A program made the translations under genes and the position numbers. DNA of 64,000 bases from assembly GCA_030018455.1 (NCBI GenBank), contig JASEFU010000004.1, positions 1 to 64,000 on the forward strand, written 5' to 3'. Source of the stretch: Dehalococcoidia bacterium. Lineage in GTDB: Bacteria; Chloroflexota; Dehalococcoidia; DSTF01; JALHUB01. Positions 18,655 to 42,372 of this stretch are shown here, piece after piece (position 1 is the stretch's first letter; the number at the start of each line of letters is the position of its first letter). The notes under the pieces were generated by a model. That model was not told the origin of the DNA, did no database searches, and saw nothing but the letters and a program-made list of their open reading frames with translations.

Positions 18655-21643
<2,989 letters not shown>

Positions 21644-21647
<4 letters not shown>

Positions 21648-22716
21648 GCCCTACCCTTGGCCTTCGCACTCTTACACTTCTGCCAGATTTCGTCGGCGCT
21701 CTCCTTTTGCAAAGCCTCCTTGATCTTCGTAATCGCCTTGGGCGAGTACCGCTTGTGCGTTTGACTGCCTATCTGGAACTCCTTGTAGCAGTCCACCACG
21801 TTACGAAGGCCAAGATAATCAACGACCGCAACCGTCTTCGGCATGCTTAGGCCAACCTTCTCCGCAAGCTGCTTCGCGCCGAGGCTGTAGTAGGCGAGTT
21901 CGTTTACGCGCTTGACGGCAACAACCGATGCGCCAGGTGTCCCTTCTGGCACCAGTTGGATTGGAATGCCTTCCTTCTTCGTCAATCGAAGCGAGAGGCT
22001 CGGGCCGGTGCCGTCGGCTGCGATCTCGACGGCCGCGGCGCCGCGGAACACGTCGGCCCAATCGCGACCCTGCGAGAGATCTCGACCCATCCGACGCAGA
22101 GACGCGTCGCTGGGCTGGCCCTTTTCGCCTTGGATCGTGGCGTCTAAGATCGCCAGAGGGCGAAGCCGTGTTAAGGCTTCCAATCGCCTCCGACGCCCTG
22201 GCTTCAGCAGCTTCCTGATCTCGACGACCTCCGACTCGAACAACGTGGCGAGGTCCGTGGGAGGCGAGGTCGAGACGGGGAGCACGCGGGCCGGGAGGTC
22301 GGTAGCAAGCTCCCGGTGGAAGACGCTCTTCAACAGATCCCGGAACAGCGTGACGCCCGACTGGACGTGCACGTAGAGCTGGCCTTCCGAGATGTCGAGC
22401 AAGTGGTGCTGGGCAGCATCCCGGAGGCCGTTGATGGTCTGGAGAAGGAGGGCCTGTTCCTCGTTCAAGTGCTTGATTTTGCCGTCGCTGAGGGACCGAC
22501 GCACGCAGGCGTCGAACCCGATCGTCTCCTTCGCGCGCTTCTCCCGGATGCGGCCGCCCCGGTGGAGTATGGCGGCCTTCAGCAGCATCTCGAACGCGTG
22601 GTCGAGGAGGATGAGAGTACTGCTGACTCGCCCGCGATCGTACGGCCGGTTGAACAGCTCGATGCTCAGGATCAGTGCATCGCAGGCCTTCTCGAGCAGG
22701 AGCTTGGCCTCGCGTT

Positions 22717-22720
<4 letters not shown>
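21644..22720 (-). CDS. DUF3644-like protein within the type I RM operon
   Basis: A 358-residue soluble protein. The N-terminal 120 residues ([30 protein letters not shown]..., [35 protein letters not shown]) resemble DUF3644, whose members have a helical, HEPN-like arrangement with an RDxxQH-like motif, here RDAAQHH. The C-terminal third has a possible DNA-binding helix-turn-helix ([21 protein letters not shown]). The gene overlaps hsdS by 4 bases at its start and hsdR by 4 bases at its end, so it is translationally coupled to the restriction operon. DUF3644 genes recur in such operons; the function is unknown. An RNase-like HEPN accessory is an inference. Confidence 0.65.
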
Positions 22721-25528
<2,808 letters not shown>

Positions 25529-25549
25529 CGTTCCTCCTTTCGGCCACGT

Positions 25550-25555
25550 AGTATA
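25550..25555 (-). promoter_or_regulatory. -10 element of the type I RM operon
   Basis: Minus-strand TATACT lies 21 bases before the hsdM ATG, with GGAGG in between. The -35 position has only a weak GACAAC-like match. Confidence 0.4.
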
Positions 25556-25596
25556 CACCAGTGTGGCGCAGTTGTTGTCGCACCCATTCCTCAACT

Positions 25597-26752: not shown

Positions 26753-27721
26753 TCAAACGCGGCCTGGGTCTCCATCGACGGTGTCTAGGTACCTGAAGCG
26801 CTCGGCCGTGGCCGACAGGAGGCCGGCCACATCGATGTCCACGTCTGGGTCCGATTGCCCATCCAGCACCACCCTGACGATGTCAAGTGTAGGTGGATGG
26901 TCGCCGGCGAGGGCTGCTATCCCTTCCCTGATTTGATCGCACGTCGACATGCCCGTCACGTCTATCCGCTCAGTCCGATAGGAGACCTCGTTGACGTGAA
27001 GTGGCTGTGCTGTCGCCCCGCCGTCGCCAATCGTTAGCAGGAGGACGTAGTGCGGCCCCTCTTCGTCGAACCCCAGCGGCTTGGGGCTGCCAGGGTATCC
27101 GCAGCGTGGCAGGTCGCGTGGCCAGAGCCGCATCCGGTGGTAGTGACCCAGCAGCACGAACACTACGCCACATGACTCGATGTCGGCGGATTCGAACGGG
27201 CAATGGGCCGCTTTGCCCTCGGGTACGGCGGAGATGTCGGAGCCGTGCAAGAGCGCCACGGCGCTCCGCGAACGGTCGAGTCTCAGTCCACGAAGGAGGT
27301 TCTCCCGCACGGCGGGACCGGTGTGGCCCACGCCCCAGACGGCGACATTGTCCGCAATCCTGACTGACTGCCACTGCGTGCTGTCGAAGATGTGGACGTT
27401 GCCAGGCCAGTCGAGGCGGCGGTACATGCTGTCGGGCACGCATCGGTCGTGGTTCCCTGGGGCGACCAGCACTGGCCGCGGCATAAGCCGCTCAAACTGG
27501 CTCGCGATGAAGCGGCCAGTATCCAGCGTTACGCGGTCATGCTCGTAAAGGTCGCCGCCCACTGTGAGGGCGTCCACGTCGTGTTCCAGGGCGAGGTCGA
27601 CGATGCGACGCAAGGCGGCGCGGAGCTCCTCGCGACGCCTGCTGGCCTCACTTGAGGCCATCCCCACGCCGGCGAACGACGAGTCCAGATGCAGGTCTGC
27701 GAAGTGAAGGATGCGAGCCAT
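26753..27721 (-). pseudogene. SbcD/YhaO-like metallophosphoesterase exonuclease, C terminus frameshifted
   Basis: The frame gives 322 residues of a calcineurin-type DNA exonuclease. All metal motifs are visible: FADLHLD (about 6-12), GGDLYEHD (about 59), PGNHDR (about 92) and GHYHRM (about 195). Homology continues past the stop in another frame, where FDLEELGDEATTRGAFVQLM and LENALHYGLQAF lie at about 26600-26765. Removing about four bases near 26763 would rejoin them. The catalytic domain may still be made, but the C-terminal helical tail is lost and its ATPase partner is destroyed, so the pair is probably non-functional. It follows the DUF499 gene by 52-58 bases on the same strand and may have been cargo of the same defence operon. 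Confidence 0.7.
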
Positions 27722-27779
27722 AGGCACTGTCCCACAGGCTGCTGCTCCACATTTCCCCGAGGACTGGGCACGGTCGGTG

Positions 27780-30700
27780 TCACTGCTCCTTTCCGAATTC
27801 GAGCTTCGCGCAGGCCTTTCTTAGCGCGTCGTTAAGCTTTGCTAGCTGCTCCTGCGATGGCTCAGCACGCTGTCCCAACTCCAGGCGCAAGACGAAGCGC
27901 AGATCTAGCCCAGCGCCTGCGTTGACGATCTCAGGGAGACCATCTACCAGATCCTGGAGCTCGGCGGGTTCGAGTTCAGCCTCTGCCACGTGTCGCCTGG
28001 GGAATGATGGAGGTGGCGCCTCTTCCGGCACGCGCAGGCGCACATTCGTAGCCTCCGGCCAATCACACGGCCACGGCCCCGAATCCGGCGTGCGCTCCAA
28101 GAGCCGGCCGCGGATAGCCGCGTCGATGGCGGAGCGGACGATGGTCCAGGGCAGCGTCTTACCAGCAACGACAGAGAGGGCGTCACCGACCGAGGCCGCT
28201 GTGGTGACAGGGTCCCTCCATGCTGCCTCTAGGTTCTGGGGGAGCACGGCAGTGGCCGGGAGGTCTGTCGGGGGCGGGTGTAGCACCGCGGTCTCGCTCA
28301 GGACTCCGTAGGGAATTTCCTCGCGGTACAGGCTGGCCGGACCTGCCGTGAGCCAGACCGACCCCGCCCTGACCGCTTCGTGAATCGCTTCCTCCACAAC
28401 TTCTTTGGCTGCCCTGGGGACAGGGAAGACCTCTTCGTAGCCTTCGCGCATCACTTTGCACGTGTGGGATCCGTCGAAGAAGGACAATACATCGCCCACT
28501 GCTATCGATTCTGCCGCTTCCGGCCACAGTCCGGGCAGCGCGCCAGGGGCCAGGAGTCCCCCGTCAAGGTGTGTGAGCTCAGAGGCCTCAGGCAGAGCAA
28601 CCTCGAGGTCCCGCTCTGTAAGGTCATTCTCGGTAGGGTGAGACCGCCAGATGGTACGGACGCTCTTATCGGGACGCGTCAGACGCAGCACGAAGTATCC
28701 CTGTTGGCAGCCGAGGGCCAGCGTGTCGACAATATCCTTCTGTCGAAGCATCTTGGGTAGATGCGGGAACTGGGCGAAAGCGCGAGTTAGGTCACTCGCG
28801 CGCCGTGAGGTCTCCCCATCTCGCCAGAGCGCGTATGGACCATCGGGCAGGAGGGCCTCCGGGCTAATCGCTGATTCCTGGATTCGTGAGCGCTTGTCGT
28901 TCTTGATGGTTTCGAACACCGGCTCACTGTTGGGCGTGATCCGGAACGCCTCTACTTCGCCCTTGGCTGACACGGCGACCACGATGCAATAGGCTTGGAC
29001 GATGGCGTCGGGGATTCTCTTCCGGGCTTCATCGGTGTACGCCGCGAGCAGCGTCTTTCTGAGTTCGTCGAAGTCCTTCGCTTCTCGCAGATTCCTAACC
29101 TCTTCCCAGCCAAGATAGTCCCGTGCACGACTTCGCACTAGCTCAAGCCCATCTTTGGAAGGGACGACCAGTAGGATGGCGTTGCGGTACACGCGTGGCC
29201 GGTCAGGGCCCGTCGTCTCATCGATGAAGCGCCGTGCCTCTGAACTTGGCTTGCCGGACTCGGAGGCTGCTCGGGGACCGAGAACTACATAGTGAAACTC
29301 GCCGTCATCCTCGACGTCGCGGGGCCGCTCCGGTACGTTGTGCACCCGAGCACCAGCAGCCGAGGCGCCGGCAGTTAGACGTCTCTCCTTGGCGATCAGG
29401 TCCCGTATGCTCACCTCAATAACGTCCGCAGGCACGCGGGCGCAAGCATCGCTGTGCATCTGACGTAGGTTCGGCTTGGTCCCGAGACGCCACCACTTTG
29501 GCAACTCCTCTACCGATGCCGTGCCGTTGCCTCCGTTCGTCTCCGCAATCGCCGCCTCGTCAAGGAAGTAGGAGACCTCGGTCCACCGCCGCAACGCCTT
29601 TTCCAACTCGATCTTGTCCGCCTTTGCTGCTCCGAGCAGAACCAGCAGATCGCGGGTCAACGCTCGCTGGCCGATGGGCTGCGAGTGAAGGAAGGTTCCC
29701 ATCACAGCTTGTTCAACCTCGCGTTCCTTGAGTGCCCGAAACTCCTGCTGGACGTCACGGGCCTTCGCAAGCTCTCCCTCCAGGATGGCCGACCACTCCT
29801 GCCGCTTACCTTCGTACTCCTCCGTCGCAGCAATGGAGGCCAATTCGCGGGCCGCCTCAGAGAGACCGGTCTGACCCGGAGCGTTGAGGAGCACGTTCGT
29901 GCCGACCAACGGAGAGGTATCCCACTTCTCCGCGTCCCGAAGGGCCATGGCAAACGTCCGGAGCACTCCGCGGGTGCGCTGGAATCCCTCGAGCTGCGTC
30001 CACTTGGTATAGAACGCCTCGGTTAATTCAGGGTGGAAGGGGTAGCTGGCAAGGTAACGCTCCTCCTCCCCCTGCCGGTTCTTCCGCGTCCCCTCGTCCA
30101 GCGCCTGGATGCCGTCAAGGGCGGCGACCACGTGCGGACGGAACGTTTCCCGGTCGCGGATGGAATCGGCCGTGAAGAACCGACGGCGCAGCACCTCAGC
30201 CACATCCTGCTTCTCCACCGGCTGGACGCCCTCTTCTTTCTCTCGACGAAAGACGTCGTATAGCTCCTTGGCGATTTCCTTGCCGAGTTCGTCGCTCTTG
30301 CGCGGATCAGTGGCAAGCAGCGACGCGACGACGCACGCTCGGTCGACCTTGGTTGCCGCCTGGGTAAGGGCCTGGAAGAAGTCCTGGAGGCGGTGGCGCC
30401 ACTGCGGATCCAGGCCCACCTTCTCGCGGGCGAACATCAGCACCTCATCGATAAGCACGAGAGTGGTCAGCCCGTCCTTGGAGGGAAATGCCAGAAGATC
30501 CCGTAGTAGGTTCTCCGCCGGGGGAGCCTCGCGCTCCTCGTCCTTGTCTTCCGCATGGAGGAGACGCAGGCCATCCGCGCCGGCGATCTGGAAGGCGAGC
30601 ACGCTCCACGGGTGCCGGAGCCAACGCGACTCTCTGTTCGGTCCATGCACCTCCATCCCCTTCTCCACGTCCAGCTTATCGAAGCATAGAGCGGCGACGC

Positions 30701-31088
30701 GCGCCTTGGGCGGCGTGACGCCCCCTGCGTGCTGGATGAACTCGTGGATGGCGGGTAGGTCCGGCAGGCTTCCCGGCTCGTTCACCAGGTGATAGAGGGT
30801 GATGAGGGCGTGGGTCTTGCCGCCGCCGTAAGTCAGCTCTAGCTGACGCACGGCCTTCTCGTTCTTGCCCGCGAGCCGCTGTAGGACATCCTTGACCAGC
30901 TCCCGTAGGTTAAAGGTGGGGTATGTGAGGGCGAAGAACTGTTGGGGGTCTTGGTAAATCGGCCGCGCCCGTCCCATAACCACGTCGTACAGGTCGGCGG
31001 CGAAGATGCTGAGGGTGAGTTCACCCGTCCGGAGGTCGTCCCGCAAGGTCACGACCTGATGCCACGGCGTGTATGTTGACTTTACCAT
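27780..31088 (-). CDS. DUF499-family ATPase of a helicase-methylase-ATPase defence operon
   Basis: A 1102-residue protein. The N-terminal half is a DUF499 ATPase: TYGGGKTHALITLYHL (about 80-95) is the P-loop, and TTLVLIDEVLMFAREKVGL (about 210-228) is a Walker B/sensor segment. DUF499 ATPases resemble BREX BrxC/PglY in having a large STAND-like ATPase with long extensions. The C-terminal half has unrecognised alpha/beta regions (for example SIAVGDVLSFFDGSHTCKVM) plus a terminal domain ending in LRFVLRLELGQRAEP. ATG 31088 is used because it follows the methylase stop by one base with GGAGG upstream. It is last of the four tightly linked genes. It probably couples ATP hydrolysis to DNA surveillance with the DUF1156 methylase (inference). 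Confidence 0.85.
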   Translation of the reverse strand: MVKSTYTPWHQVVTLRDDLRTGELTLSIFAADLYDVVMGRARPIYQDPQQFFALTYPTFNLRELVKDVLQRLAGKNEKAVRQLELTYGGGKTHALITLYHLVNEPGSLPDLPAIHEFIQHAGGVTPPKARVAALCFDKLDVEKGMEVHGPNRESRWLRHPWSVLAFQIAGADGLRLLHAEDKDEEREAPPAENLLRDLLAFPSKDGLTTLVLIDEVLMFAREKVGLDPQWRHRLQDFFQALTQAATKVDRACVVASLLATDPRKSDELGKEIAKELYDVFRREKEEGVQPVEKQDVAEVLRRRFFTADSIRDRETFRPHVVAALDGIQALDEGTRKNRQGEEERYLASYPFHPELTEAFYTKWTQLEGFQRTRGVLRTFAMALRDAEKWDTSPLVGTNVLLNAPGQTGLSEAARELASIAATEEYEGKRQEWSAILEGELAKARDVQQEFRALKEREVEQAVMGTFLHSQPIGQRALTRDLLVLLGAAKADKIELEKALRRWTEVSYFLDEAAIAETNGGNGTASVEELPKWWRLGTKPNLRQMHSDACARVPADVIEVSIRDLIAKERRLTAGASAAGARVHNVPERPRDVEDDGEFHYVVLGPRAASESGKPSSEARRFIDETTGPDRPRVYRNAILLVVPSKDGLELVRSRARDYLGWEEVRNLREAKDFDELRKTLLAAYTDEARKRIPDAIVQAYCIVVAVSAKGEVEAFRITPNSEPVFETIKNDKRSRIQESAISPEALLPDGPYALWRDGETSRRASDLTRAFAQFPHLPKMLRQKDIVDTLALGCQQGYFVLRLTRPDKSVRTIWRSHPTENDLTERDLEVALPEASELTHLDGGLLAPGALPGLWPEAAESIAVGDVLSFFDGSHTCKVMREGYEEVFPVPRAAKEVVEEAIHEAVRAGSVWLTAGPASLYREEIPYGVLSETAVLHPPPTDLPATAVLPQNLEAAWRDPVTTAASVGDALSVVAGKTLPWTIVRSAIDAAIRGRLLERTPDSGPWPCDWPEATNVRLRVPEEAPPPSFPRRHVAEAELEPAELQDLVDGLPEIVNAGAGLDLRFVLRLELGQRAEPSQEQLAKLNDALRKACAKLEFGKEQ

Positions 31089-31089
31089 C

Positions 31090-34000
31090 CTACCCGCCTC
31101 CTTCGCGCGAGCCTTCAAGGTTGAGCCGCATCTGGGGATGGGCGCCGCGGGCGGCGACGTGGTTCATGACGGCCTCCAGGAGCGCCCGCTCCTCCGGCTG
31201 GTTGTCCTTGCGCGCCAGCTCGACCAGGGCCTGGAGCAGACGTGGGAAGAGCGCGTTTCCGCGAAGGCCACGGTCCTCGATGTAGGCGTCTACCTTCTGG
31301 ACGTCGCCCTCGCGCCAGAGGCGCATGATGCGGTGCACCTGGTCGATGAGCGGCGCCGGTCGGCCCTCCGCGTCCAGGCCCAGCGACTTGCCCCGGCGCT
31401 GGTCCCAGCGCTTGAGCCGCACCTTGCTACCGCTTCCCCGCTCCTCCGGCTCTTCGTCCCCCTCTTCGTCCTCTTCCTCCTCGTCCTCGGTTGCCGAGCC
31501 GCTGGTGAACGCGACGAGATCGTAGCGGTCGGCCAGGTCGCGGTCGCGGAGGCTGCACGACTGCGCGTAGAGGATGCAGGCACCGACTGGCGCCTCGGCG
31601 AAGCCGAAGTCGTGGCGGTGGAGCAGGTAGTAGATGGTCGGGTTATCCAGGCTGGCGGCCTCCTCGCTCTCGCCGTCGCGAGAGAGGACGCGGCCCACCA
31701 CGTAGTCCACCACGATACGGCGGACGTGGTGCAGAAACTCCGAGACGGTGAGGACGGCGTTGGGCTCGTCGGCTTTCTTGACCACGGGGTGCTTGCTGTA
31801 GGCCTCCAGGGCGGGGCCGGTGGCGGACCAGACGAAGTCCGGGCCACGGATGCCGGCGTCCCAGAAGTCGCGGAGCCGCTGATAGATGTTGGTGCGCATC
31901 TCCTCCAGCACCTGGGTGTCCCAGCCGGGCCGCGCCGTCTCCGGCCGCTTCCGGCATACGAGCCAGACGGATGAAGCCAGTGCCGCCGATCCATGTGCTC
32001 TTGATCTGTTGCTCATCTCTGTCTGAATAGGCCAACTTCCATTGACGACAAACCCGGCCCGAATCATTGAAGAGACCAATGTCTCCCAGGCTTCCGGCTG
32101 TTTGTTCGCGAAGACTATTACCATCTTTCCGTTTGGCTCCAGAACCTCTTGGCAAGCCCGAAATGCGCGAAACATGCCATCTTCGTATGCTGCCTTGGAT
32201 TGACGGGCATCGCCCCCAAAGCGGCTGGCATCGTCTATCAACTCCCCGTCATTTTGAGAGTGGTTCCACTTCGGGCCTAGTGCGTCTTGGAGCGCTGAAT
32301 CTGTTTGAGGTGAAAGACCGTACAAGGCTCGCCGAAGCCAGACATAAAAGAAATCCATCAGGTCCGAATAGGGAATAGCGTCATAGTAGGGAGGATCAGT
32401 GACGACGACGTCAAAGCAACCGACCTCAGGGCTTGTCGAAGCGGAACACGCAAGGGGTGTTGGCGCAGGCTTTCGCATGGCAGCGCTGGAGCAGTGTGCA
32501 GCGCACTCAGCAACCCACTCCAAGCAGGACAGGTAATTGCCTGTGGTGTCTGAAAGAGGATTGCCTTCACAGAAATCCCACAATATGGGTAATGCGAAGC
32601 GGGTGAACGTGCTGTTTACCTTTGTATAGCCCACGTCCCAGCGGCACAAAGCCGATGACCGATCCGCAAGTTTATCCACGCCGATGCCCAAGTACGCCCC
32701 CACCGCCTCCACCCACTCCGGCGGGTAGCCCTCGGCGCGCATGGCATCGCGGGCGGCACGCGTGTGCTTCACGAACGTGCCCAGGGCCACGAGCTGGCGC
32801 GGCGTGAAAAGCTTGTACCACTGGTCGAAGCCATAGAGCGGTACGCGAAAGCCCAGGGCCTCCTTGGTAGGCAGGGGCTCCGTCGGCAGTCCAAAGGGGA
32901 CATCCTGGAAGGTGGACTCGACGCAGCCGGTGGCCTCCTCGGCAGCGCGGAGCTCCTCGTTGGCGGGTAGGCGGTACTCCTTGCCCTTGGCCGCGTCCAC
33001 TACCACAGCGGTCATTTGCGCGCCAAGGTTCCCATTCATACCCTCGGCGCGGATGTCCTCCATGGTCATCGCCACAGTGCCGGGGCCGCCACAGACTGGG
33101 CACCAGGCGCCGGAACGGGACATGGTCCCCCGCCCCACACGGCGGTCGTGGGCGCGCTGCTGGGCGCCGTTCCCCCCCACCCTGGGTTCCTCCACCACCT
33201 CGAAGTCCACGCCGGAGCGGTCGGTCCGCGGCACGAGCTTCAGCCGGACACGCTTCTTCTCCTTGCGGCACAGCCACAGCGTTTTGAGCAGGGGCAAGGT
33301 GGCGCGGCAGTTCTTACAGGTGACGGTCCGCGCCCAGAGGTAGGCCACCGTCGGCTTCCCCTCCACCGTGGGGTAGAAGCGCTCCAGGTCGGCCCGGGCG
33401 CGCTGGAGCACCCAGTGGCCCCAGGCGCGCACGTGCCAGGCCAGGTCGGCCTCCGGCGGCTCCAGCATCTGCGCCTGCTGGCCCTCGTCCCTTCGTCCGC
33501 GCCCCTTCTTCGCCCTGCCGGTCTGCTTCAGGTACTCCGCCATGAACTCCGGCGACTCGAGCGCGAATTTCGGCAGCGGGCGCGTCTGGCCGGCGAGCCG
33601 TTGCGGATACTCCAGGGTGCACTTCAGGATGAACCACGCGACGGGATTGATGTCGATCGCCGTGGCCTCGCAGCCCAGTCGCATCGCCTCCAGGGGGATG
33701 GCCCCACCCCCGGCGAAGGGGTCGAGGACCCGGGGCGGGCGGCCATAGACCTTACGGATCTCCTCGCGGAAGAACTCGAGGTCGGGCCCATTCTCGCGTC
33801 CCCAGTGGAGGATGCCGCCGACCGTCTCCTCCTTCACCACCGGCACCTCGCGGCCGCCGACGCGCTTGGTGGTGTTCTTGGTCACGACCTTGCCGCCGAG
33901 CCGCTCGAGGAGGCGCTGGCGTTCGACGTTGTTGCCGGGGTCGGGCAGGAGCGTGGCGATGAGGGCCGCGCGGCAGGCGGCCAGCGGGCGTCGCGCCGGC

Positions 34001-34119
34001 CAGATGTGGAGCGTCGAGATGTGGCCGTGGCGCACGTTCTTCTCGTGCACGGAGTCCAGCGACGCCTGCTTCAGCGGGAACGCGACTTCGATGAGGCGAG
34101 GGCGGTCGTCAAGGGTCAT
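31090..34119 (-). CDS. DUF1156 adenine-specific DNA methyltransferase
   Basis: A 1009-residue protein starting MTLDDRPRLIEVAFPL, with the DUF1156 N terminus (VRHGHISTLHIWPARRPLAA, about 30-49). The SAM-binding motif is VLDPFAGGGAIPLEAMRLG (about 135) and the catalytic motif is VVTDPPYYDAIPYSDLMDF (about 575), so the order of motifs is that of N6-adenine (or N4-cytosine) methylases. Zinc-ribbon-like pairs CKNC...CRKE and CPVCGG lie at about 272-350. An acidic Glu-rich linker lies near 885-905. Such methylases are found beside DUF499 ATPases and SNF2 helicases in defence islands. The start overlaps the DUF3800 stop by 4 bases (ATGA) with AGGAGACCCC upstream. Target sequence unknown. Confidence 0.88.
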   Translation of the reverse strand: MTLDDRPRLIEVAFPLKQASLDSVHEKNVRHGHISTLHIWPARRPLAACRAALIATLLPDPGNNVERQRLLERLGGKVVTKNTTKRVGGREVPVVKEETVGGILHWGRENGPDLEFFREEIRKVYGRPPRVLDPFAGGGAIPLEAMRLGCEATAIDINPVAWFILKCTLEYPQRLAGQTRPLPKFALESPEFMAEYLKQTGRAKKGRGRRDEGQQAQMLEPPEADLAWHVRAWGHWVLQRARADLERFYPTVEGKPTVAYLWARTVTCKNCRATLPLLKTLWLCRKEKKRVRLKLVPRTDRSGVDFEVVEEPRVGGNGAQQRAHDRRVGRGTMSRSGAWCPVCGGPGTVAMTMEDIRAEGMNGNLGAQMTAVVVDAAKGKEYRLPANEELRAAEEATGCVESTFQDVPFGLPTEPLPTKEALGFRVPLYGFDQWYKLFTPRQLVALGTFVKHTRAARDAMRAEGYPPEWVEAVGAYLGIGVDKLADRSSALCRWDVGYTKVNSTFTRFALPILWDFCEGNPLSDTTGNYLSCLEWVAECAAHCSSAAMRKPAPTPLACSASTSPEVGCFDVVVTDPPYYDAIPYSDLMDFFYVWLRRALYGLSPQTDSALQDALGPKWNHSQNDGELIDDASRFGGDARQSKAAYEDGMFRAFRACQEVLEPNGKMVIVFANKQPEAWETLVSSMIRAGFVVNGSWPIQTEMSNRSRAHGSAALASSVWLVCRKRPETARPGWDTQVLEEMRTNIYQRLRDFWDAGIRGPDFVWSATGPALEAYSKHPVVKKADEPNAVLTVSEFLHHVRRIVVDYVVGRVLSRDGESEEAASLDNPTIYYLLHRHDFGFAEAPVGACILYAQSCSLRDRDLADRYDLVAFTSGSATEDEEEEDEEGDEEPEERGSGSKVRLKRWDQRRGKSLGLDAEGRPAPLIDQVHRIMRLWREGDVQKVDAYIEDRGLRGNALFPRLLQALVELARKDNQPEERALLEAVMNHVAARGAHPQMRLNLEGSREGGG

Positions 34120-34820
34120 TGGGGTCTCCTGCTTGATGAAGGCTCTTGGTAGTCAAAGAGCCATATTTTTGCGCTATATCCACGATGTGTGTCTAGTGTT
34201 TCAGTAACATGAGAGGCAACTCGATTTGCCAAGCAACGTTTCGGCTCCGCTATCGATCCGTCAGCTGACGCGGTAATGGCACCTAGCAATACGTCGGTCA
34301 ATTGAATAAGGTCGTTAGATCTGGATTCCTCAACAACATTCAACTTATAGATGTTGCGACCTTCCAACCCCCAACTTCCACGCCTAGACTTGTTTATTCG
34401 ATACCACAGACCTGCCCAGCGTGAGCGGCGTCGAAGGCTTACGCCGTCGACCCAGACATAGCACCCCGTGCGTGGAGGTACGACTCTCATAAGAAAATGC
34501 CTGTATACGTTGAAGAAGCCTTCCTCTCTTCGCCTACTTATCGACGAACGCGGCGCTCGCATCACCAAAAAGCGACATGCCTTATCCCCTAGAAACACCT
34601 CAACCCATTCCTGGTACGCGTTCAGGAACTTTCTTGAAACTTTAGTCCACTTCATCTCTGCCGTGAGTTTTTCTTTCGTCCTGATACTTGCCAACTTTTC
34701 ACGGATAATCTCGGAGCGCCTGTAAGAACAGCGCAGGCAACCCAGGTAGATATACGGGCTTCCATGCATGCCCGTCTCGTCACAGAATATAGCGGGAACA
34801 TAAGGAAATCCTGTAGGCAT
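34116..34820 (-). CDS. DUF3800-like protein inserted in the defence operon
   Basis: A 234-residue protein. IFCDETGMHGSPYIYLGCLRC near the N terminus matches the DUF3800 hallmark 'DESG followed by a beta strand', and further acidic residues occur at WVDGVSL (about 123) and in SNDLIQLTDVLLGAITAS (about 175-190). DUF3800 is thought to have an RNase H-like fold, so a nuclease role is plausible but untested. It is AT-richer than its neighbours, suggesting separate acquisition. The start codon shares a base with the helicase stop (TAATG), and its stop overlaps the methylase start. I do not recall this gene as a fixed part of helicase-methylase-ATPase systems. Confidence 0.65.
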   Translation of the reverse strand: MPTGFPYVPAIFCDETGMHGSPYIYLGCLRCSYRRSEIIREKLASIRTKEKLTAEMKWTKVSRKFLNAYQEWVEVFLGDKACRFLVMRAPRSSISRRREEGFFNVYRHFLMRVVPPRTGCYVWVDGVSLRRRSRWAGLWYRINKSRRGSWGLEGRNIYKLNVVEESRSNDLIQLTDVLLGAITASADGSIAEPKRCLANRVASHVTETLDTHRGYSAKIWLFDYQEPSSSRRPQ

Positions 34821-37800
34821 TAGATTGTGTCCTCTGCCGCCTCAAACACGCTTGCCTCGTCTATCACCACGCCTCCTTTAGCCCGCACCAGGAGCTTCGC
34901 AAAGGGGTCTCGAATGCGCAAGAGCCGCGGGTGGGTAGCGGCGCAGTCGTACACAACGTAGAGCCAGTACTGCTGGCGCAGATTGGCGGCCTGGGCCCAC
35001 TCGTTCTCGGAGAGCTGGACATCGCCCACGGCGCGACGGCCCTTCACCTCGATGCACCGCTCTTCTCCGTCAGATCGGCGCGAGAGGAGGTCGAAGCCCA
35101 CCTTCTGGAGAGGATCGGACACATCGTGCACGGTAGCGCCCAGGGATTCCTCATAGGCCCGCGCCACGCGCATCGCTATCTGCTCGATCTCGCGGTCATG
35201 GCGTTCGCGCTCGTCGGGATCGCTGGACGGCAGTACCAGGGCGTGGGCCAGGAAGGCGATGCCGTTGGCGTCAACGAGTTCCGGCTCCCGGCGCAGGATC
35301 GCGAGGGCGCGGTCCCGCTGGACAGCCAGATCCGTCTGCTTTCTGCGCACCTCTTCCAGCGCCCGCCGCGCCGGGGCGTCGCCGGCGTCCGCCCGCTCCC
35401 GCAAGCGGGTTCGGGTCCCGAGGAGCTCCGCCTCCTGGTAGTCGAATCCCGCTTGCAGGAACGCCTCCCGCTCCGGGATCGAAGCGGCGAGGCCAGCGGC
35501 GATCCGCTCGGCCGCAGGACGCGCGATGGTGTCCATAAGATGCGCTCTGGCGGCTTCGATGGCTTCCGTGACCTGACCCATGGGCGGCAGGGCTGTGGGC
35601 GGCACCCGCTTCGCAAGCTGAAGGACCATGGGTAGCTCGACAGGGCAGGCGCATGTCGTCCCGTCGAAGGTCTGCGTAATGGCAGCCAGCCGCACGTCGA
35701 GCGTCTGTTCTGACCCAAAGGCTTCAGGGTAGTCCGGGTCGGCGCGGCGCACCGTAGAGACGAGGGCCAGGTGGTAAAGGTAGGGCTCCGTGGCGTAGGG
35801 ATCGATGAAGGCAGCGCCACGGAGCGCGTCTGCTGCAAAGCGTTCAGAGAAGAAGGCCCGATAACGGTCGAAGAACGGCTCGCCCGGCCGCAAGAACAGG
35901 ACATCATCGGTCGGTTCCGGCTTGTTGACGGTCAGAGGGAGTGCCATGCCGCCCGTCGCGTCCTCCATCGCTAGCGTAAGAGGGAGCGGCAAGCGTTTGA
36001 GCCAGAACCGGCCGTCCAAATCGCCTTCGATGTTCACCCCAAGGTAGGGCGCGGACTTCTCCAGAAAGTGTCTGACGTAACCGGGGAGTAGCCGATGCAG
36101 CTGGTCCTGGTCCCGCTGCGCCCGAAGCGTGGGAAGCTGCGACGCGACGTCGCCGCCTGTGGCGCGAAGCTTCGCGTCGGCCTCCTCGATGGCTGTCACC
36201 TGCTCCTTAGTAAGGGTGCCTTCGATCTTGGCGATACTCTCATCCTCTTCGCCCTCCACCACAGCCCTCATGATGAGCTCGCTCAGGGAGATGCCTTGGA
36301 ACTGCCGGCCGATCACGTCGAACACCTTGTCGGACCCCAGTTCCCTGCGAATGCGTTCGAGCTTTTCCAGCAGCGTCCTGAGAACCCTACCCTCACGTGT
36401 CTTCCCTGCCACCAGGTTGATAAGAACGACGGGATCATGCCGTTGCTTATAGCGGTGGATCCGGCCCATACGCTGCTCAATACGGGCGGGGTTCCAGGGG
36501 ATGTCGTAGTTCACCATGATCCAGCAGAACTGGAGGTTGATGCCCTCGCCTGCGGCGTCGGTCGCCACCATGAACCGGCAGCGGGTCCGAAACGCCTCCA
36601 TCTGAGCCTCGCGCTCCTGGTAGGGCATCCCACCGTGGATGCGCGCGATCTCCTCTGTGTAACCCATCCCCTCCAGGCGACGGACCAGGAACTCCATGGT
36701 GTCCCGATGCTCGGTGAAGATCAGTAGCTTCTCTCCCTTGAACCGCTCATCGTGGATGACTTCCCGCAGCTTCTCGAACTTCGACTCGTCCCCCGTCTCA
36801 TGGGCGCGCTGCGCAAGGTCCAGGAGTTGCAGCACCTCCAGTCGCTCCGCCTCGAGTTCCGCCAGGGTCGTGGCAGCGGTGGCGCCCATGGCTGCTTCCT
36901 CAGCGACATCCCGCGCCTCCCGCCCATCCTCAGGCTCTTCCTCCTCGCTGGTCATCTCCTCTTCGATGTCGCGGAGCCTGAGGCGTGCTTGCTCCGCTGC
37001 GAGCCGCTCCTCGGTCAGCTCCCGGACAGAGAAGGCCCGAATGTATTCGCCCAGCCGGTCGCGTCGCCGCTCCAGCGACCGAAGCAGGGCCCAGGTGGAA
37101 CTCGCGGCGCGGCGCTGTAGGACGCTCATCGCGAGCCGAGCGGCCGAGCGGTTTAGAAAGCGGGCTCGGTTGAAGTGCGTGCGCACGTAGGAGGTCAACT
37201 GGTCATAGAGCTCCTTTTCCACGGGGGAAAGATCATAGTTGACGGTTGTGCTTTCTCGAGACGGGTAAAGACGGCTCCCGTCGAACCGCACCATTTCCTC
37301 CTTCGTGCGGCGGACAAAGTGCCGCGCCCTCGCCTCAGGGGGGAAGCTGTTGAATGCATCGACCGTTTTCAGCGCGTTCGGCTCTAGCAGCCGCCATAGG
37401 GCGTAGTACGGAAAGTCTTTCCCCATGTGGGGAGTAGCAGTCAGTAACAGCAGGTGGTGCGCGTGCCATGAGAGGTGGCGCGGCGGGTGGCTCTCCTGCA
37501 GCGGCTCCGCGCCCGCTAGAAGTTCAGCCAGCTTGTAGCGGTCGGTCGTCTCGTAGGTGCCATCGGCGTTCCTGATAGCTGTCAGTTTGTGAGCCTCGTC
37601 GAAGACCACCAGGTCATAGGGCACAGTGTGAGGTTGAGCCAACCGCTCGTAGGCCCGATCGGCGGCTAGAGTGTCGACGCTCACTACCACGAGGTCGCTT
37701 CCTGGGCCTGAAAACGGGTTGTCAGTCCGACAGTCGAAGCCTGTTACCTCTCGACAATGCAACGAGAACAGAACCCGCATCTCGCGCTTCCAGTTCCCGA

Positions 37801-38368
37801 CAAGGCCAGCTGGAGAGACGATGAGTACGCGACGTACTAAGTGCCGGCTCAGCATTTCCCGCACATACAAGCCAGCCATGATCGTCTTCCCTGCCCCGGC
37901 ATCGTCCGCAAGGAGCATGCGGAGGCGAGGCTGAGTCAGCATCCTCTGATAGACCGCAATAATCTGGTGCGGGAGCGGGTCGATGAGGGCGGTCTCGGTG
38001 CCGAACGTTGGGCTGAAGAGATGACCGTAGCGGAGACGCTCGCCCTCCACGAACAGGCGGACCAGTCCGGGGTCAACCCTGAAGTCGGGGCTTGGCCATT
38101 GGCCCGCCGCAGCGTATACGGCCAACGGCTCGCCAACGCGGGCGTGCCCAAGCCGGCGATCCACGTTCCCAAGGGCCGTTGTTGCACTCGCCGCCAGCGT
38201 GGTCAGCGCCTTGACGGCAAGCCTGTTCGGGCGCGACTGGCCATTCTCCCACCGACTGATCGTGACTACCGTCACGCCTAGACGCTCGGCGAGTTGGCTT
38301 TGCGTAAGCCCTAGCTCAGTCCGAAGACCTCTGATCCACTCTGGTGAACCGACAGAAGCGGTAACCAT
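34820..38368 (-). CDS. XRE-SNF2 helicase with C-terminal DUF3883 domain
   Basis: A 1182-residue protein with three parts. Residues about 10-65 are an XRE/Cro-type helix-turn-helix (LGLTQSQLAERLGVTVVTISRWENG). An SNF2/SF2 helicase follows with Walker A LADDAGAGKTIMAGL (about 155), VVFDEAHKL (about 255) and the C-terminal motifs DAAGEGINLQF and EQRMGRIHRYKQ (about 600-640). A C-terminal domain (about 1075-1170) with CIEVKGRRAVGDVQLSENEW is DUF3883, a PD-(D/E)xK-related NERD-like module. ATG 38368 has AGGGGGC upstream and a good promoter. It is first in the operon. The added DNA-binding head could bind the operon's own promoter or guide the helicase; neither is shown. Confidence 0.88.
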   Translation of the reverse strand: MVTASVGSPEWIRGLRTELGLTQSQLAERLGVTVVTISRWENGQSRPNRLAVKALTTLAASATTALGNVDRRLGHARVGEPLAVYAAAGQWPSPDFRVDPGLVRLFVEGERLRYGHLFSPTFGTETALIDPLPHQIIAVYQRMLTQPRLRMLLADDAGAGKTIMAGLYVREMLSRHLVRRVLIVSPAGLVGNWKREMRVLFSLHCREVTGFDCRTDNPFSGPGSDLVVVSVDTLAADRAYERLAQPHTVPYDLVVFDEAHKLTAIRNADGTYETTDRYKLAELLAGAEPLQESHPPRHLSWHAHHLLLLTATPHMGKDFPYYALWRLLEPNALKTVDAFNSFPPEARARHFVRRTKEEMVRFDGSRLYPSRESTTVNYDLSPVEKELYDQLTSYVRTHFNRARFLNRSAARLAMSVLQRRAASSTWALLRSLERRRDRLGEYIRAFSVRELTEERLAAEQARLRLRDIEEEMTSEEEEPEDGREARDVAEEAAMGATAATTLAELEAERLEVLQLLDLAQRAHETGDESKFEKLREVIHDERFKGEKLLIFTEHRDTMEFLVRRLEGMGYTEEIARIHGGMPYQEREAQMEAFRTRCRFMVATDAAGEGINLQFCWIMVNYDIPWNPARIEQRMGRIHRYKQRHDPVVLINLVAGKTREGRVLRTLLEKLERIRRELGSDKVFDVIGRQFQGISLSELIMRAVVEGEEDESIAKIEGTLTKEQVTAIEEADAKLRATGGDVASQLPTLRAQRDQDQLHRLLPGYVRHFLEKSAPYLGVNIEGDLDGRFWLKRLPLPLTLAMEDATGGMALPLTVNKPEPTDDVLFLRPGEPFFDRYRAFFSERFAADALRGAAFIDPYATEPYLYHLALVSTVRRADPDYPEAFGSEQTLDVRLAAITQTFDGTTCACPVELPMVLQLAKRVPPTALPPMGQVTEAIEAARAHLMDTIARPAAERIAAGLAASIPEREAFLQAGFDYQEAELLGTRTRLRERADAGDAPARRALEEVRRKQTDLAVQRDRALAILRREPELVDANGIAFLAHALVLPSSDPDERERHDREIEQIAMRVARAYEESLGATVHDVSDPLQKVGFDLLSRRSDGEERCIEVKGRRAVGDVQLSENEWAQAANLRQQYWLYVVYDCAATHPRLLRIRDPFAKLLVRAKGGVVIDEASVFEAAEDTI

Positions 38369-38709: not shown

Positions 38710-39455
38710 CTACCCCCGTTCCTCATAGGGACGTCCGGTCTTCACCACGAAATAGGCGATGGTCAGCAGCTTGCGTGCCAGCGCTGTTATCGCCGTCTGC
38801 GATCCGTGCCGCGCCTGGATGCGTCGGTACTACTGCCCCGGCGAACGCTGGTTCTGGCCCGTCCTAGCCGCTGCCTCGGTGAAGGTCCACCTCAGCAAGG
38901 AGGAGCCTTGCTGGTGATGTGTCCGAGATGCACCCTGCCGCCTGAGGCCCGTACCCGAGGGGCCAGGCCGGCAAAGGACACCAACTTCGCCGCATCTGGG
39001 AACCTGTGGAGACCCCTAACCTCGGCCAGGAAAAGCAGGGCAGTGAGGGGCCCAATGCCTGGGATAGTCATGAGCAGCCTGGCTCTGGGGTCTTGCCGGG
39101 CCTGGCCGTAAACCTCCGCCGTCACCTCCCGAACATCAGCCTGCAGCGAGTCCAGAATGGCGAGATAACGTTCCACAATCCGTCGGTGCCCCCTCAAGAG
39201 AGGCTGGCGAAGATAGGTGAGGTCCTCCTTCAGGGCGTCTACCTGTACGCAGTGCTGTCTGACGAAGCGACGTTGCGGTCTCCAGAGCAACACGGTGGGC
39301 CAGAACGGACTGCTGGTGACGCGAGGCTCGAGGCAGCGCCGGATGACAGGACCTGCGAAGGCCGACGCGAGACGCAGGGCCCTTCTGGGGATGGTGCTTC
39401 GGCATGTGGCTAACAGGTGTAAGGCGCATGACTGCTTGCATCGGCCGTGGCCCAA
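38710..39455 (-). pseudogene. IS110-family transposase remnant
   Basis: The minus strand encodes the C-terminal Transposase_20 domain of an IS110-type enzyme: LLMTIPGIGPLTALLFLAEV, then FPDAAKLVSFAGLAPRVRAS and GRVHLGHITSK. After a frameshift near 38895 the tail (LLRWTFTEAAARTG, an in-frame TAG near 38850, then TALARKLLTIAYFVVKTG and a stop at 38710) continues the family ending. The N-terminal DEDD catalytic half is not recognisable, so the element is dead. IS110 elements lack terminal inverted repeats, and no ends could be defined. Confidence 0.75.
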
Positions 39456-39484
39456 TGCTAGTATTGATGCGACACCATAGTGTC
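39436..39484 (+). promoter_or_regulatory. Promoter and palindromic operator of the VapBC-like pair
   Basis: TTGCAT (39436-39441) and TAGTAT (39459-39464) with a 17-base spacer predict a start near 39471. A palindrome GACAC-CATA-GTGTC (39471-39484) covers that start. This is the expected place for an operator bound by a ribbon-helix-helix antitoxin. It also disfavours translation from the upstream ATG at 39467. Confidence 0.45.
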
Positions 39485-39496
39485 ATAGAGAGCGCA

Positions 39497-39841
39497 GTGG
39501 CCAGGATCACCCTTCGACTCCCGGACGACCTGCACCGGCGCCTGCATGATGCCTGCCGGCGAACGGGCAACTCGCTGAATCAGACTATCGTAGCGGCCCT
39601 AGCGCAGGCGCTCGGTCGTGGCGATCAGGTGCCCGAAAGGAATAGCGCCCTCATGGAGCAGCTATCGCATATCAAAACGGCCCTGGGGGAAATAACAGTG
39701 GACATCGAGGTCAGCCGCTTCCCGGCCCAGTTTCCTCCTGAGGAGGAAATGCCGAGCCGTGAGGAGCTGGTCGCGTTGCTGCCCACGCTGTCTCCTCCCC
39801 TGTCTTCGACCATTTTGGAGGAGCGGAGAGAACGCGTCTGA
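39497..39841 (+). CDS. Ribbon-helix-helix antitoxin (VapB-like)
   Basis: A 114-residue protein beginning VARITLRLPDDLHRRLHDACRR, an RHH/Arc-type DNA-binding N terminus (basic beta strand RITLRLP, then helix-NS-helix around TGNSLNQTIVAALAQAL). The longer C-terminal tail, rich in Pro, Glu and Leu, would wrap the toxin. GTG 39497 is chosen over ATG 39467 because the predicted transcription start and operator lie between them, and AGAGAG sits just upstream. It ends 4 bases before the PIN-domain gene. Antitoxins of this type neutralise the toxin and repress their own promoter. Confidence 0.7.
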   Translation: MARITLRLPDDLHRRLHDACRRTGNSLNQTIVAALAQALGRGDQVPERNSALMEQLSHIKTALGEITVDIEVSRFPAQFPPEEEMPSREELVALLPTLSPPLSSTILEERRERV

Positions 39842-39845
39842 ACCG

Positions 39846-40310
39846 ATGCCGCTGCACTATCTGGACACGAGCGCCCTGGTCAAACGATACCTGCCGGAAC
39901 CAGGCTCGGGTTGGGTCAACTCGCTGGTCTCGTCCGAGCCTGTCGCGGTTCCACTGCTGGCTGCTGTTGAGCTGGCGTCAGCGCTGGCCCGCCGAACGCG
40001 TGAAGGTGACTTGACTTCGGAACAGCGGGACATTGTGTTCCGCTCCTTCGTTGCTGACGCCAGGGAGTACGTGATGCTGGCGGTAACGCAGGGCGTTACA
40101 GAGGACGCTGCTTCCATGCTCCTCACAAGTCCACCCTCGGTGGCGCTGCGAACGTTGGACGCGCTTCACCTGGCGGGGGCGCGCGTGGCCTTCGCCAACG
40201 CTCGACGGCGCGGCCTGGAGACTGGAGCCTTCGTAACCGCAGACAGGGCGCTGGCTCAAGCCGCAGCCTGGGCTGGGCTGACCGCGATCAACCCGGAAGA
40301 TTACGCGTGA
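39846..40310 (+). CDS. PIN-domain toxin (VapC-like)
   Basis: A 154-residue PIN-domain RNase. The conserved acidic residues are in MPLHYLDTSALVKRYLPE (Asp 7), AVELASALARRTREG (Glu about 39), LRTLDALHLAGA (Asp about 102) and FVTADRALAQAA (Asp about 124). VapC toxins cleave tRNA or rRNA and halt growth; the target here is unknown. It is paired with the RHH antitoxin 4 bases upstream and probably stabilises the island. It ends 32 bases before the recombinase ATG. Confidence 0.85.
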   Translation: MPLHYLDTSALVKRYLPEPGSGWVNSLVSSEPVAVPLLAAVELASALARRTREGDLTSEQRDIVFRSFVADAREYVMLAVTQGVTEDAASMLLTSPPSVALRTLDALHLAGARVAFANARRRGLETGAFVTADRALAQAAAWAGLTAINPEDYA

Positions 40311-40342: not shown

Positions 40343-41983
40343 ATGAGGTGTGCGATCTACACCAGAGTCTCCACGGACGAACAGGCGAGGAGCGAATACA
40401 GTTCGCTGGAGCGACAGAAAGAAGTATGCGCCAGCTACATCGAAATCCAGAAAGAAAAAGGCTGGCATCTCGCTGGCGTCTACGAGGATGGCGGCTAGTC
40501 TGGGAAAGATCTCAGCCGCCCGGGCCTTCAAGAACTCCTGCAGGACGTCAGGGACCGCAAGATTGACGTCGTGGTCACCTACAAGATTGACCGCATCTCG
40601 CGGTCTCTGAAGGATTTCTACGAGTTCTGGGAGGTGCTGAAGGAGCACGGCGTCTCGTTCGTCTCGGCGACGCAGCACTTCGACACCTCGGACTCGACTG
40701 GAATGCTCATGCTGAACATCCTCCTCAGCTTCGCCCAGTTCGAGCGGGAGCTCACGAGGGAGAGAACGCTGAGCAAGATGGCGGGCCGGGCAGAAAGGGG
40801 ATTGTGGAACGGCGGCTACGTGCCCATCGGATTTGACTATTCGCGGCAGACCCAGCAGCTTCGGCGCAACGAGCGTGAGGCCGAGACCGTAACATTCGTC
40901 TTTCGGCGTCTGGTCGAGACCCGTTCTCCCCGCGCGGTAGCCAACGAGGCCAACAGCCTCGGTTACCGAACGAAGATGCGCACCGTCGTTAGGCGCCAAG
41001 GGTCCAGCCAAGAGGTAGGTGGTAAGCGCTTCGACGAGGACACGGTGAAGGCGATTGTGCGCAACCCCATCTACAAAGGCTTTATCCGCTACAACGGCGA
41101 CCTCTACCCGGGCAACCACGAACCCATCGTCGATCAGGAGACCTGGGAGCAAGCGAATAGAGCTATCGGGAATGGCCGAGAGGGCAACGGCCTCCACTAC
41201 AAGGATGACCATGTGCACCTCTTGAAGGGCATCCTGCGGTGCGGCGCGTGTGGACTGGCAATGACTCCGTATCCTTCGGGTAAGAAGACGAAAGACGGGA
41301 GGCCCTACCTGTACTACGCATGCACTTCCGTAACACAGGACGGCAGCCACTCGGGGTGTTCGGTGCGCGCCTTGCCGGCACGGGAGTTCGAAGCCCTAAT
41401 CAAGCAGGTTCTGACCGACCTCGGCAACAACCCCAGCATCCTCCAGGCGTGCGTGGATGCCGCCAATCGCGACGCGACTCGGTCGTTGACCTCTTTGAAA
41501 AAAGAGCAACGCCGGCACCAGGAGGAGATCGGCGACTTGACGGTCGGTATCCGGCGTATCGTCGAGGTTATGAAGCAGGAGGACATGCTCTCCGAGGACG
41601 TGCGAGAAGAGTACAAGCAACTCGTGCGGGAGAAGGAGCGGCTCCTCGCCTTGTGCGAGAAGCTGCAACTCGACATCGAGCGGCGACAGAAACGGGTCCT
41701 GGACGCGGAAATCATCCGCCGGAGTCTCCAGGACTTCGAGAGGCTAGTGAACCTGCTTCCCCTGGAGGACCAGAAGGAGCTGTTCCAGCTGCTAATCCGG
41801 GAGGTGGAGGTCCACCCGTTCGACCCCTCCAAGGAGAAGTTGCCGAAGGCCCGTGGAGCGTTCGCGACGAGGGTGCGCTCGAAGTGGTACCGAGTCAACG
41901 TGACCCTGCACCATCTTCCAGGGGTGGACCTGGGAGAGCGGGCCTACGTTGTGAGTTCGGATAATGAGAGAACTGGCTCCCCG
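40343..41983 (+). pseudogene. Large serine recombinase with an in-frame TAG and a frame that crosses the attachment site
   Basis: Starting at ATG 40343 (GAGGAGG upstream), MRCAIYTRVSTDEQARSEY contains the resolvase catalytic Ser and RVSTDEQ motif. At 40496-40498 a TAG interrupts the otherwise collinear VYEDGG-stop-SGKDLSRPGLQELL; family members have an aromatic or other residue here, and the same frame resumes without shift. It continues through ITYKIDRISRS-like and FAQFERELTRERT motifs, a recombinase DNA-binding domain, a zinc ribbon (CGACG...C), and a coiled coil (about 395-480). The frame has no stop before tRNA-Asn; beyond 41984 it reads tRNA genes backwards to 42361, which is not credible protein. 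Either a dead enzyme or one needing amber readthrough. Confidence 0.8.
41974..41983. repeat. Inferred attR core inside tRNA-Asn
   Basis: TGGCTCCCCG, the complement of the tRNA-Asn 3' end including CCA, matches 18287-18296 in the same orientation. It lies within the open recombinase frame. Confidence 0.6.
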
Positions 41984-42049
41984 AGCAGGACTCGAACCTG
42001 CAACCTAGCGGTTAACAGCCGCCCGCTCTACCGATTGAGCTATCGGGGA
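41974..42049 (-). tRNA. tRNA-Asn (anticodon GTT)
   Basis: Acceptor TCCCCGA pairs with TCGGGGA, discriminator G, encoded CCA; D arm TAGCTCAAT; anticodon loop CTGTTAA giving GTT; T loop TTCGAGT. It is the inferred integration target of the island and remains complete after insertion. Confidence 0.97.
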
Positions 42050-42075
42050 GCGCCGATGTGGAACGATCCGTATTC

Positions 42076-42149
42076 TGGCTGCCGAGCCAGGACTCGAACC
42101 TGGACTAAGGGATCCAAAGTCCCTGGTGCTACCATTACACCACTCGGCA
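42076..42149 (-). tRNA. tRNA-Gln (anticodon TTG)
   Basis: Acceptor TGCCGAG pairs with CTCGGCA, discriminator G, encoded CCA; anticodon stem AGGGA/TCCCT around CTTTGGA giving TTG; T loop TTCGAGT. Confidence 0.97.
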
Positions 42150-42205
42150 GCGACTTCGCGACATCAATAAGGCGGGCTCATCCCCGCCTTGCTCCCGAGC
42201 GCGGT

Positions 42206-42294
42206 TGGTGCCGAAGGCCGGGATCGAACCGGCACGGGGGTCGCCCCCCAACAGTTTTTGAGACTGTCGCGTCTACCAATTCCGCCACTTCGGC
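42206..42294 (-). tRNA. tRNA-Leu (anticodon CAA)
   Basis: Acceptor GCCGAAG pairs with CTTCGGC, discriminator A, encoded CCA. The anticodon stem ACAGT/ACTGT encloses CTCAAAA giving CAA, and a long GC-rich variable arm of class II tRNA follows. Confidence 0.96.
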
Positions 42295-42297
42295 GTT

Positions 42298-42372
<75 letters not shown>

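Follow-up and report, generated by a model that had tools for sequence, protein, structure and literature searches.

The 64-kb stretch of DNA analysed here (hereafter, the window) contains an operon of the known antiviral Hma (helicase–methylase–ATPase) type with a DUF3800 gene, encoding a predicted nuclease, between its core genes. We think it probable, with moderate confidence, that this gene is a horizontally acquired and exchangeable accessory nuclease of the operon that acts as a second-line defence. The embedding of genes in Hma operons is already known, with embedded defence genes published (Payne 2024 preprint, as cited in PMC11411939) and auxiliary nucleases within BREX-related operons catalogued (PMC12839542); what appears to be new is DUF3800 as Hma cargo. 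The main text of PMC12839542 makes no mention of DUF3800, and DUF3800 was not found as Hma cargo in the literature searched. As exchangeable cargo, DUF3800 would count among the second-line defence genes known to be embedded in such operons. Since close relatives combine similar Hma cores with different cargo, they offer a clean test case for separating the contribution of the cargo from that of the core.

The DUF3800 gene (34116–34820, minus strand; 705 bp, 234 amino acids, ATG start) lies on the same strand as hmaA (34820–38368), hmaB (31090–34119) and hmaC (27780–31118), which PADLOC identifies together as an Hma system. HmaA (PADLOC E = 3e-163) is an SNF2 helicase with an N-terminal HTH_3 and a C-terminal NOV_C domain (Pfam Helicase_C, SNF2, HTH_3 and NOV_C), HmaB (PADLOC E = 2e-121) is a DUF1156 DNA adenine methylase (DUF1156 E = 9e-18; motifs FAGGG and DPPY) and HmaC (PADLOC E = 1e-81) is a DUF499 AAA+ ATPase (Pfam DUF499). 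The DUF3800 start codon overlaps the hmaA stop codon by 1 bp (TAATG) and its 3′ end overlaps the methylase start by 4 bp (ATGA), and these overlaps with both neighbours place the gene inside a single operon. The encoded protein matches Pfam DUF3800 (PF12686; E = 1e-8, 36.4 bits versus a curated cut-off of 21) and, over nearly its whole length, the PADLOC model PDC-M04A (E = 9e-26). Its gene is foreign in composition, with a GC content of 0.495 (versus 0.629–0.659 in the hma genes) and a GC3 of 0.506 (versus 0.74–0.82). When the window was scanned in 50-bp steps, every other 705-bp segment had a higher GC content. The gene was probably acquired recently, by horizontal transfer. A scan of 20–44 kb with Rfam for a structured RNA associated with DUF3800 returned only tRNAs above threshold. 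A second, distinct DUF3800 gene occurs elsewhere in the same genome, outside the window (G000:C1:708719–709300).

Given 41 aligned sequences, AlphaFold2 modelled the DUF3800 protein with high confidence (mean pLDDT 87.5, pTM 0.88), and the closest structural matches of the model are RNases HII. In a Foldseek search of the PDB, RNase HII/H2 structures filled the top 12 rows (2dff, E = 2.2e-5), while RNase HII/H2/HIII structures made up the top 18 rows in VIA (1eke, RNase HII: Z 11.1 over 160 residues, rmsd 3.4), with moderate Z scores against RNase HII and sequence identities of about 9–12%. Searching for a solved structure by sequence gave no match (best E = 0.07). The model shares with RNase HII (1eke, 2dff) a DE pair ending beta-1 and downstream acidic residues, but differs in having extra C-terminal elements and a conserved E-x-K-W motif. 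The DETG motif spans residues 14–17, with the predicted metal-binding pair D14–E15 (codons 34776–34781, minus strand, as for all codons given here) at the end of beta-1 and each residue conserved in 40 of the 41 sequences of alignment A3. In the same alignment, E55 (codon 34656–34658) belongs to the E-x-K-W motif (EMKWTK), whose E, K and W are present in 41/41, D125 (34446–34448), at the end of a strand spanning residues 120–125 in the model, is conserved in 40/41, and D176 (34293–34295), in helix 170–187, in 41/41. All of the family-invariant residues (D, E, ExKW, D and QxxD) are kept in the window protein, and its acidic residues map to strand 1, strand 120–125 and helix 170–187, positions compatible with a metal-binding cluster in space. 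Model residue 8 aligns to residue 1 of 1eke and, by this offset and assuming an ungapped alignment, D14–E15 would correspond to D7/E8 of 1eke. Because an RNase HII-like fold coincides with nearly invariant D14, E15, E55, D125 and D176, the prediction of a nuclease is well supported. The enzyme would belong to the RNase H superfamily, with RNase HII as its closest fold, and would depend on metal. The protein is not the housekeeping RNase HII, since the genome carries its own RNase HII gene elsewhere.

The sequence-only reading had described a DUF3800 gene embedded in a methylase/helicase operon and visibly richer in AT than its neighbours, and had proposed an RNase H-like nuclease from the DETG motif and downstream acidic residues, with structure prediction and fold comparison as the check; on all of these points the present results bear it out. 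The fold itself has been proposed before for DUF3800 or RlfA proteins (PMC10910872, PMC12669027, PMC3710099), and the family is widespread, with suspected RNase H-fold members among the accessories of CRISPR V-A2 and VI-F and in RlfA of phage P1. For example, the window protein shares its family and its predicted RNase H fold with P1 RlfA and NamA-like RNase H-fold toxins (PMC3710099), but is only about 21% identical to RlfA, which is not located in an Hma operon and whose gene is non-essential in phage P1 (PMC10695390).

The same earlier reading had gone further in suggesting that DUF3800 could be the effector of the operon, with the DUF3883 module on the helicase as the only other candidate. 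That module is present as the NOV_C/DUF3883 domain of HmaA (PF13020, E = 4.5e-20; amino acids 1061–1150, positions 34919–35188, minus strand), and its PD-(D/E)XK motif, which is also found in homologues, is intact (GFD with D1093; IEVKG with E1107-x-K1109). The operon therefore has a nuclease without DUF3800. Hma corresponds to the Type-1 DUF499-centred BREX-related systems of a 2026 survey, in which the C-terminal PD-(D/E)XK domain of the helicase is the primary nuclease effector (PMC12839542), and DUF3883 on this helicase had been named a novel REase domain in a 2013 study (PMC3710099). The motif is likewise kept in the other loci compared with A–B (type-1) gene order, whereas the domain is absent from loci with the reversed B–A order. 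The window operon thus shares the canonical gene order, the DUF1156 methylase and the SNF2 helicase with an intact C-terminal PD-(D/E)XK (DUF3883) domain of the Hma system (Payne 2021, PMC8565338), and differs in carrying DUF3800 between hmaA and hmaB. Its HmaC has no HEPN fusion by Pfam, unlike part of the Type-1 systems. An essential role for DUF3800 as the effector nuclease would fit its nuclease-like predicted fold, its conserved acidic residues and its place inside the operon, but with the helicase nuclease intact, and given the distribution of DUF3800 and the variability of the junction described below, we regard such a role as very improbable.

To place the gene in context, 40 Hma-like Chloroflexota loci were read, with the sample chosen by HmaB homology within this one phylum and genes called from ORFs. 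Of the 27 loci with A–B order and both genes, 13 have one or more ORFs of ≥100 amino acids on the same strand between hmaA and hmaB, and the hmaB–hmaC junction is occupied in 6 of 26; this difference is suggestive only. In the HmaB tree, the window groups with L101, L102 and L090 with 100/100 support, and these four loci carry four different cargos: DUF3800 in the window, a 128-amino-acid unknown protein in L101, a different unknown of at least 118 amino acids near a contig end in L102, and HicA, SAVED and a SMODS cyclase in L090. In the sister clade (L089, L096, L098 and L099), by contrast, the junction is empty (0–51 bp). Relatives at about 65–72% identity thus carry other cargo, which also argues against DUF3800 as an essential effector. 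Since this site is filled by other defence genes, or left empty, in the operons most closely related to that of the window, DUF3800 most likely serves as an accessory that can be exchanged rather than as the main weapon of the operon.

The junction cargo of other loci includes DUF5343 and Ymh HEPN (L103), DUF4276, which is HEC-01B (L087), GmrSD/HEC-05 fused to AlbA (L110), SIR2, HerA and GmrSD (L109), AbiJ_NTD4 (L120), AlbA_2 (L121), a large HATPase protein (L122) and a Y1-transposase-like gene (L095), with unknowns in further loci. As in the window clade, the cargo of L103 and L095 has a lower GC content than the neighbouring hma genes. The window gene resembles the Hma-embedded HEC families of PADLOC in being an accessory defence gene inside an Hma operon, and matches to HEC-01B and HEC-05 occupy this same junction in other Chloroflexota, but the DUF3800 protein itself matches no HEC model in PADLOC-DB 2.0.0, only PDC-M04A. 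The HmaB proteins of the two loci most closely related to the window, L101 (1–3216) and L102 (7651–11100), contain an in-frame insert of the REase-like DUF559 (E = 5e-39 and 8e-39), bordered in L102 by SPxGRG-type repeat peptides; the window HmaB, in contrast, has no DUF559 match.

DUF3800 itself has a wide and scattered distribution. DUF3800 was found in 57 of 301 Chloroflexota genomes, and an HmaB match in at least 88 of the 301; when HmaB and DUF3800 coordinates were compared across the 301 genomes, no second case of DUF3800 with Hma occurred among the matches listed, a further point against an essential effector. Beyond this phylum, DUF3800 also stands beside Hma/DUF499 systems in two Verrucomicrobiota genomes. 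At the first locus (L168), a gap of 3 bp separates hmaB from the start of DUF3800, the small PDC-M04B gene comes next, the A–B junction holds a SIR2 and an HTH gene, and hmaC ends another contig. At the second (L182, 1468–15560), DUF3800 and M04B lie downstream of a Type-2-like PLD-helicase DUF499 operon, in which a SMODS cyclase gene also sits between the ATPase and methylase genes. As L168 was found via a DUF3800 search, the two loci give no rate. Most aligned DUF3800 proteins are only 18–26% identical to that of the window; the most similar one found (L082:4943–5605; 55% identity over about 120 amino acids) is truncated by what appears by eye to be an IS5-type transposase gene. A scan of viral contigs with the single protein returned no close relatives, while a looser alignment query recovered 35 distant DUF3800 loci at 21–27% identity.

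Various phages, among them P1 (rlfA) and Mannheimia phages, carry members of the family, as do plasmids; other members occur beside type I restriction–modification (R-M) genes or alone. This breadth, together with the fast turnover of cargo at the junction, is also consistent with DUF3800 being an independent passenger. It would then be a defence or toxin gene sufficient in itself, expressed from the Hma promoter but functionally unlinked to Hma. This is the main rival to our interpretation, and one that we consider possible but rather unlikely. That DUF3800 is repeatedly found within or next to DUF499 systems and R-M operons suggests a benefit beyond chance, although shared expression alone could provide such a benefit.

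PDC-M04, a PADLOC candidate system of which we found no mention in the literature, is defined by two genes, M04A (DUF3800) and the small M04B (approximately 165 amino acids), and M04B follows most of the M04A genes examined. For example, L067, L068, L070 and L073 are type I R-M operons in which hsdS is followed by both M04A and M04B. The window holds the M04A part but not the two-gene arrangement: four M04B proteins gave no tblastn match in the window better than E = 1.1, and the overlapping genes leave no room for an adjacent M04B. Over the whole genome, an M04B profile returned no match, though the same profile was also silent in controls. Because the partner is missing, the window DUF3800 may not work as other PDC-M04A proteins do. 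This absence, along with the modest Pfam score, could indicate a degenerate or repurposed remnant that lost M04B and is now inactive or only a regulator. We consider this improbable, as the reading frame is open, its start and stop overlap tightly with the neighbouring genes and the family-invariant residues are kept. In addition, the nearest kin (L065 and L066) likewise have no M04B match, so the solo form seems stable. The M04B model was confident (pLDDT 89), but its best PDB match, a Streptococcus pneumoniae toxin–antitoxin module, had a non-significant E = 0.04.

For the accessory nuclease that we favour, we infer the activity, substrate, trigger and back-up role as follows. HmaB would methylate host DNA, HmaC would scan and the HmaA helicase–nuclease would cut foreign DNA, with the DUF3800 protein made from the same transcript as the core hma genes. 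As a second line of defence, DUF3800 would cleave nucleic acid, with RNA or RNA:DNA as the likelier substrates, in the course of an infection, perhaps once core Hma has been inhibited, as PrrC does beside its type I R-M enzyme. In the guard version of this scheme, DUF3800 would be silent while Hma works and released once a phage disarms Hma. PrrC, whose gene is similarly nested in a restriction operon, with that of a type Ic R-M enzyme, has set a precedent for such guarding (PMC2610378, PMC3710099), but it is a HEPN ABC-ATPase tRNase with no sequence relation to DUF3800, to which the role would extend by analogy.

A broader and distinctly doubtful extension is that the hmaA–hmaB junction is specialised for the exchange of guard effectors. 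The Hma complex would keep these effectors inactive until a phage inhibits Hma, and recombination within the hmaA and hmaB genes on either side would replace one cargo with another. The guard effectors would then include the DUF3800 nuclease, the CBASS-like cyclase pair, HEPN and GmrSD. Swapping of this kind is hinted at because the end of hmaA is duplicated in L090, where a degenerate second hmaA 3′ end sits between two cargo blocks, a trace of the kind expected from recombination at this end of hmaA. The gene order there (L090:4908–8017) is HicA, what by eye are HicB and a zinc-ribbon antitoxin, the degenerate hmaA 3′ end, SAVED and SMODS.

The Hma operon shares its island with other defence genes. 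A type I R-M operon (HsdM, HsdS and HsdR) is located at 18996–25594, and a DUF3644/PDC-S19 gene (21644–22720) is nested between its hsdS and hsdR. The DUF3644 protein carries RDAAQHH, which fits the HEPN Rx4-6H motif, and from its sequence it is probably a second nested RNase, about 11 kb from DUF3800. A calcineurin-like phosphoesterase gene (26753–27727) lies on the same strand, 52 bp downstream of hmaC, and blastp found no counterpart of it in the related Hma loci. Directly upstream of the Hma operon, the region 38892–40310 holds a fragment of an IS110-type transposase (Transposase_20, partial profile) and a toxin–antitoxin-like pair of ribbon–helix–helix and PIN genes. Further upstream, a serine recombinase frame (40571–42361) runs through a cluster of four tRNAs (41974–42372); its resolvase match begins at profile position 68, with the N-terminal half outside the frame. 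The recombinase and tRNA cluster may mark an integration site or the edge of the island.
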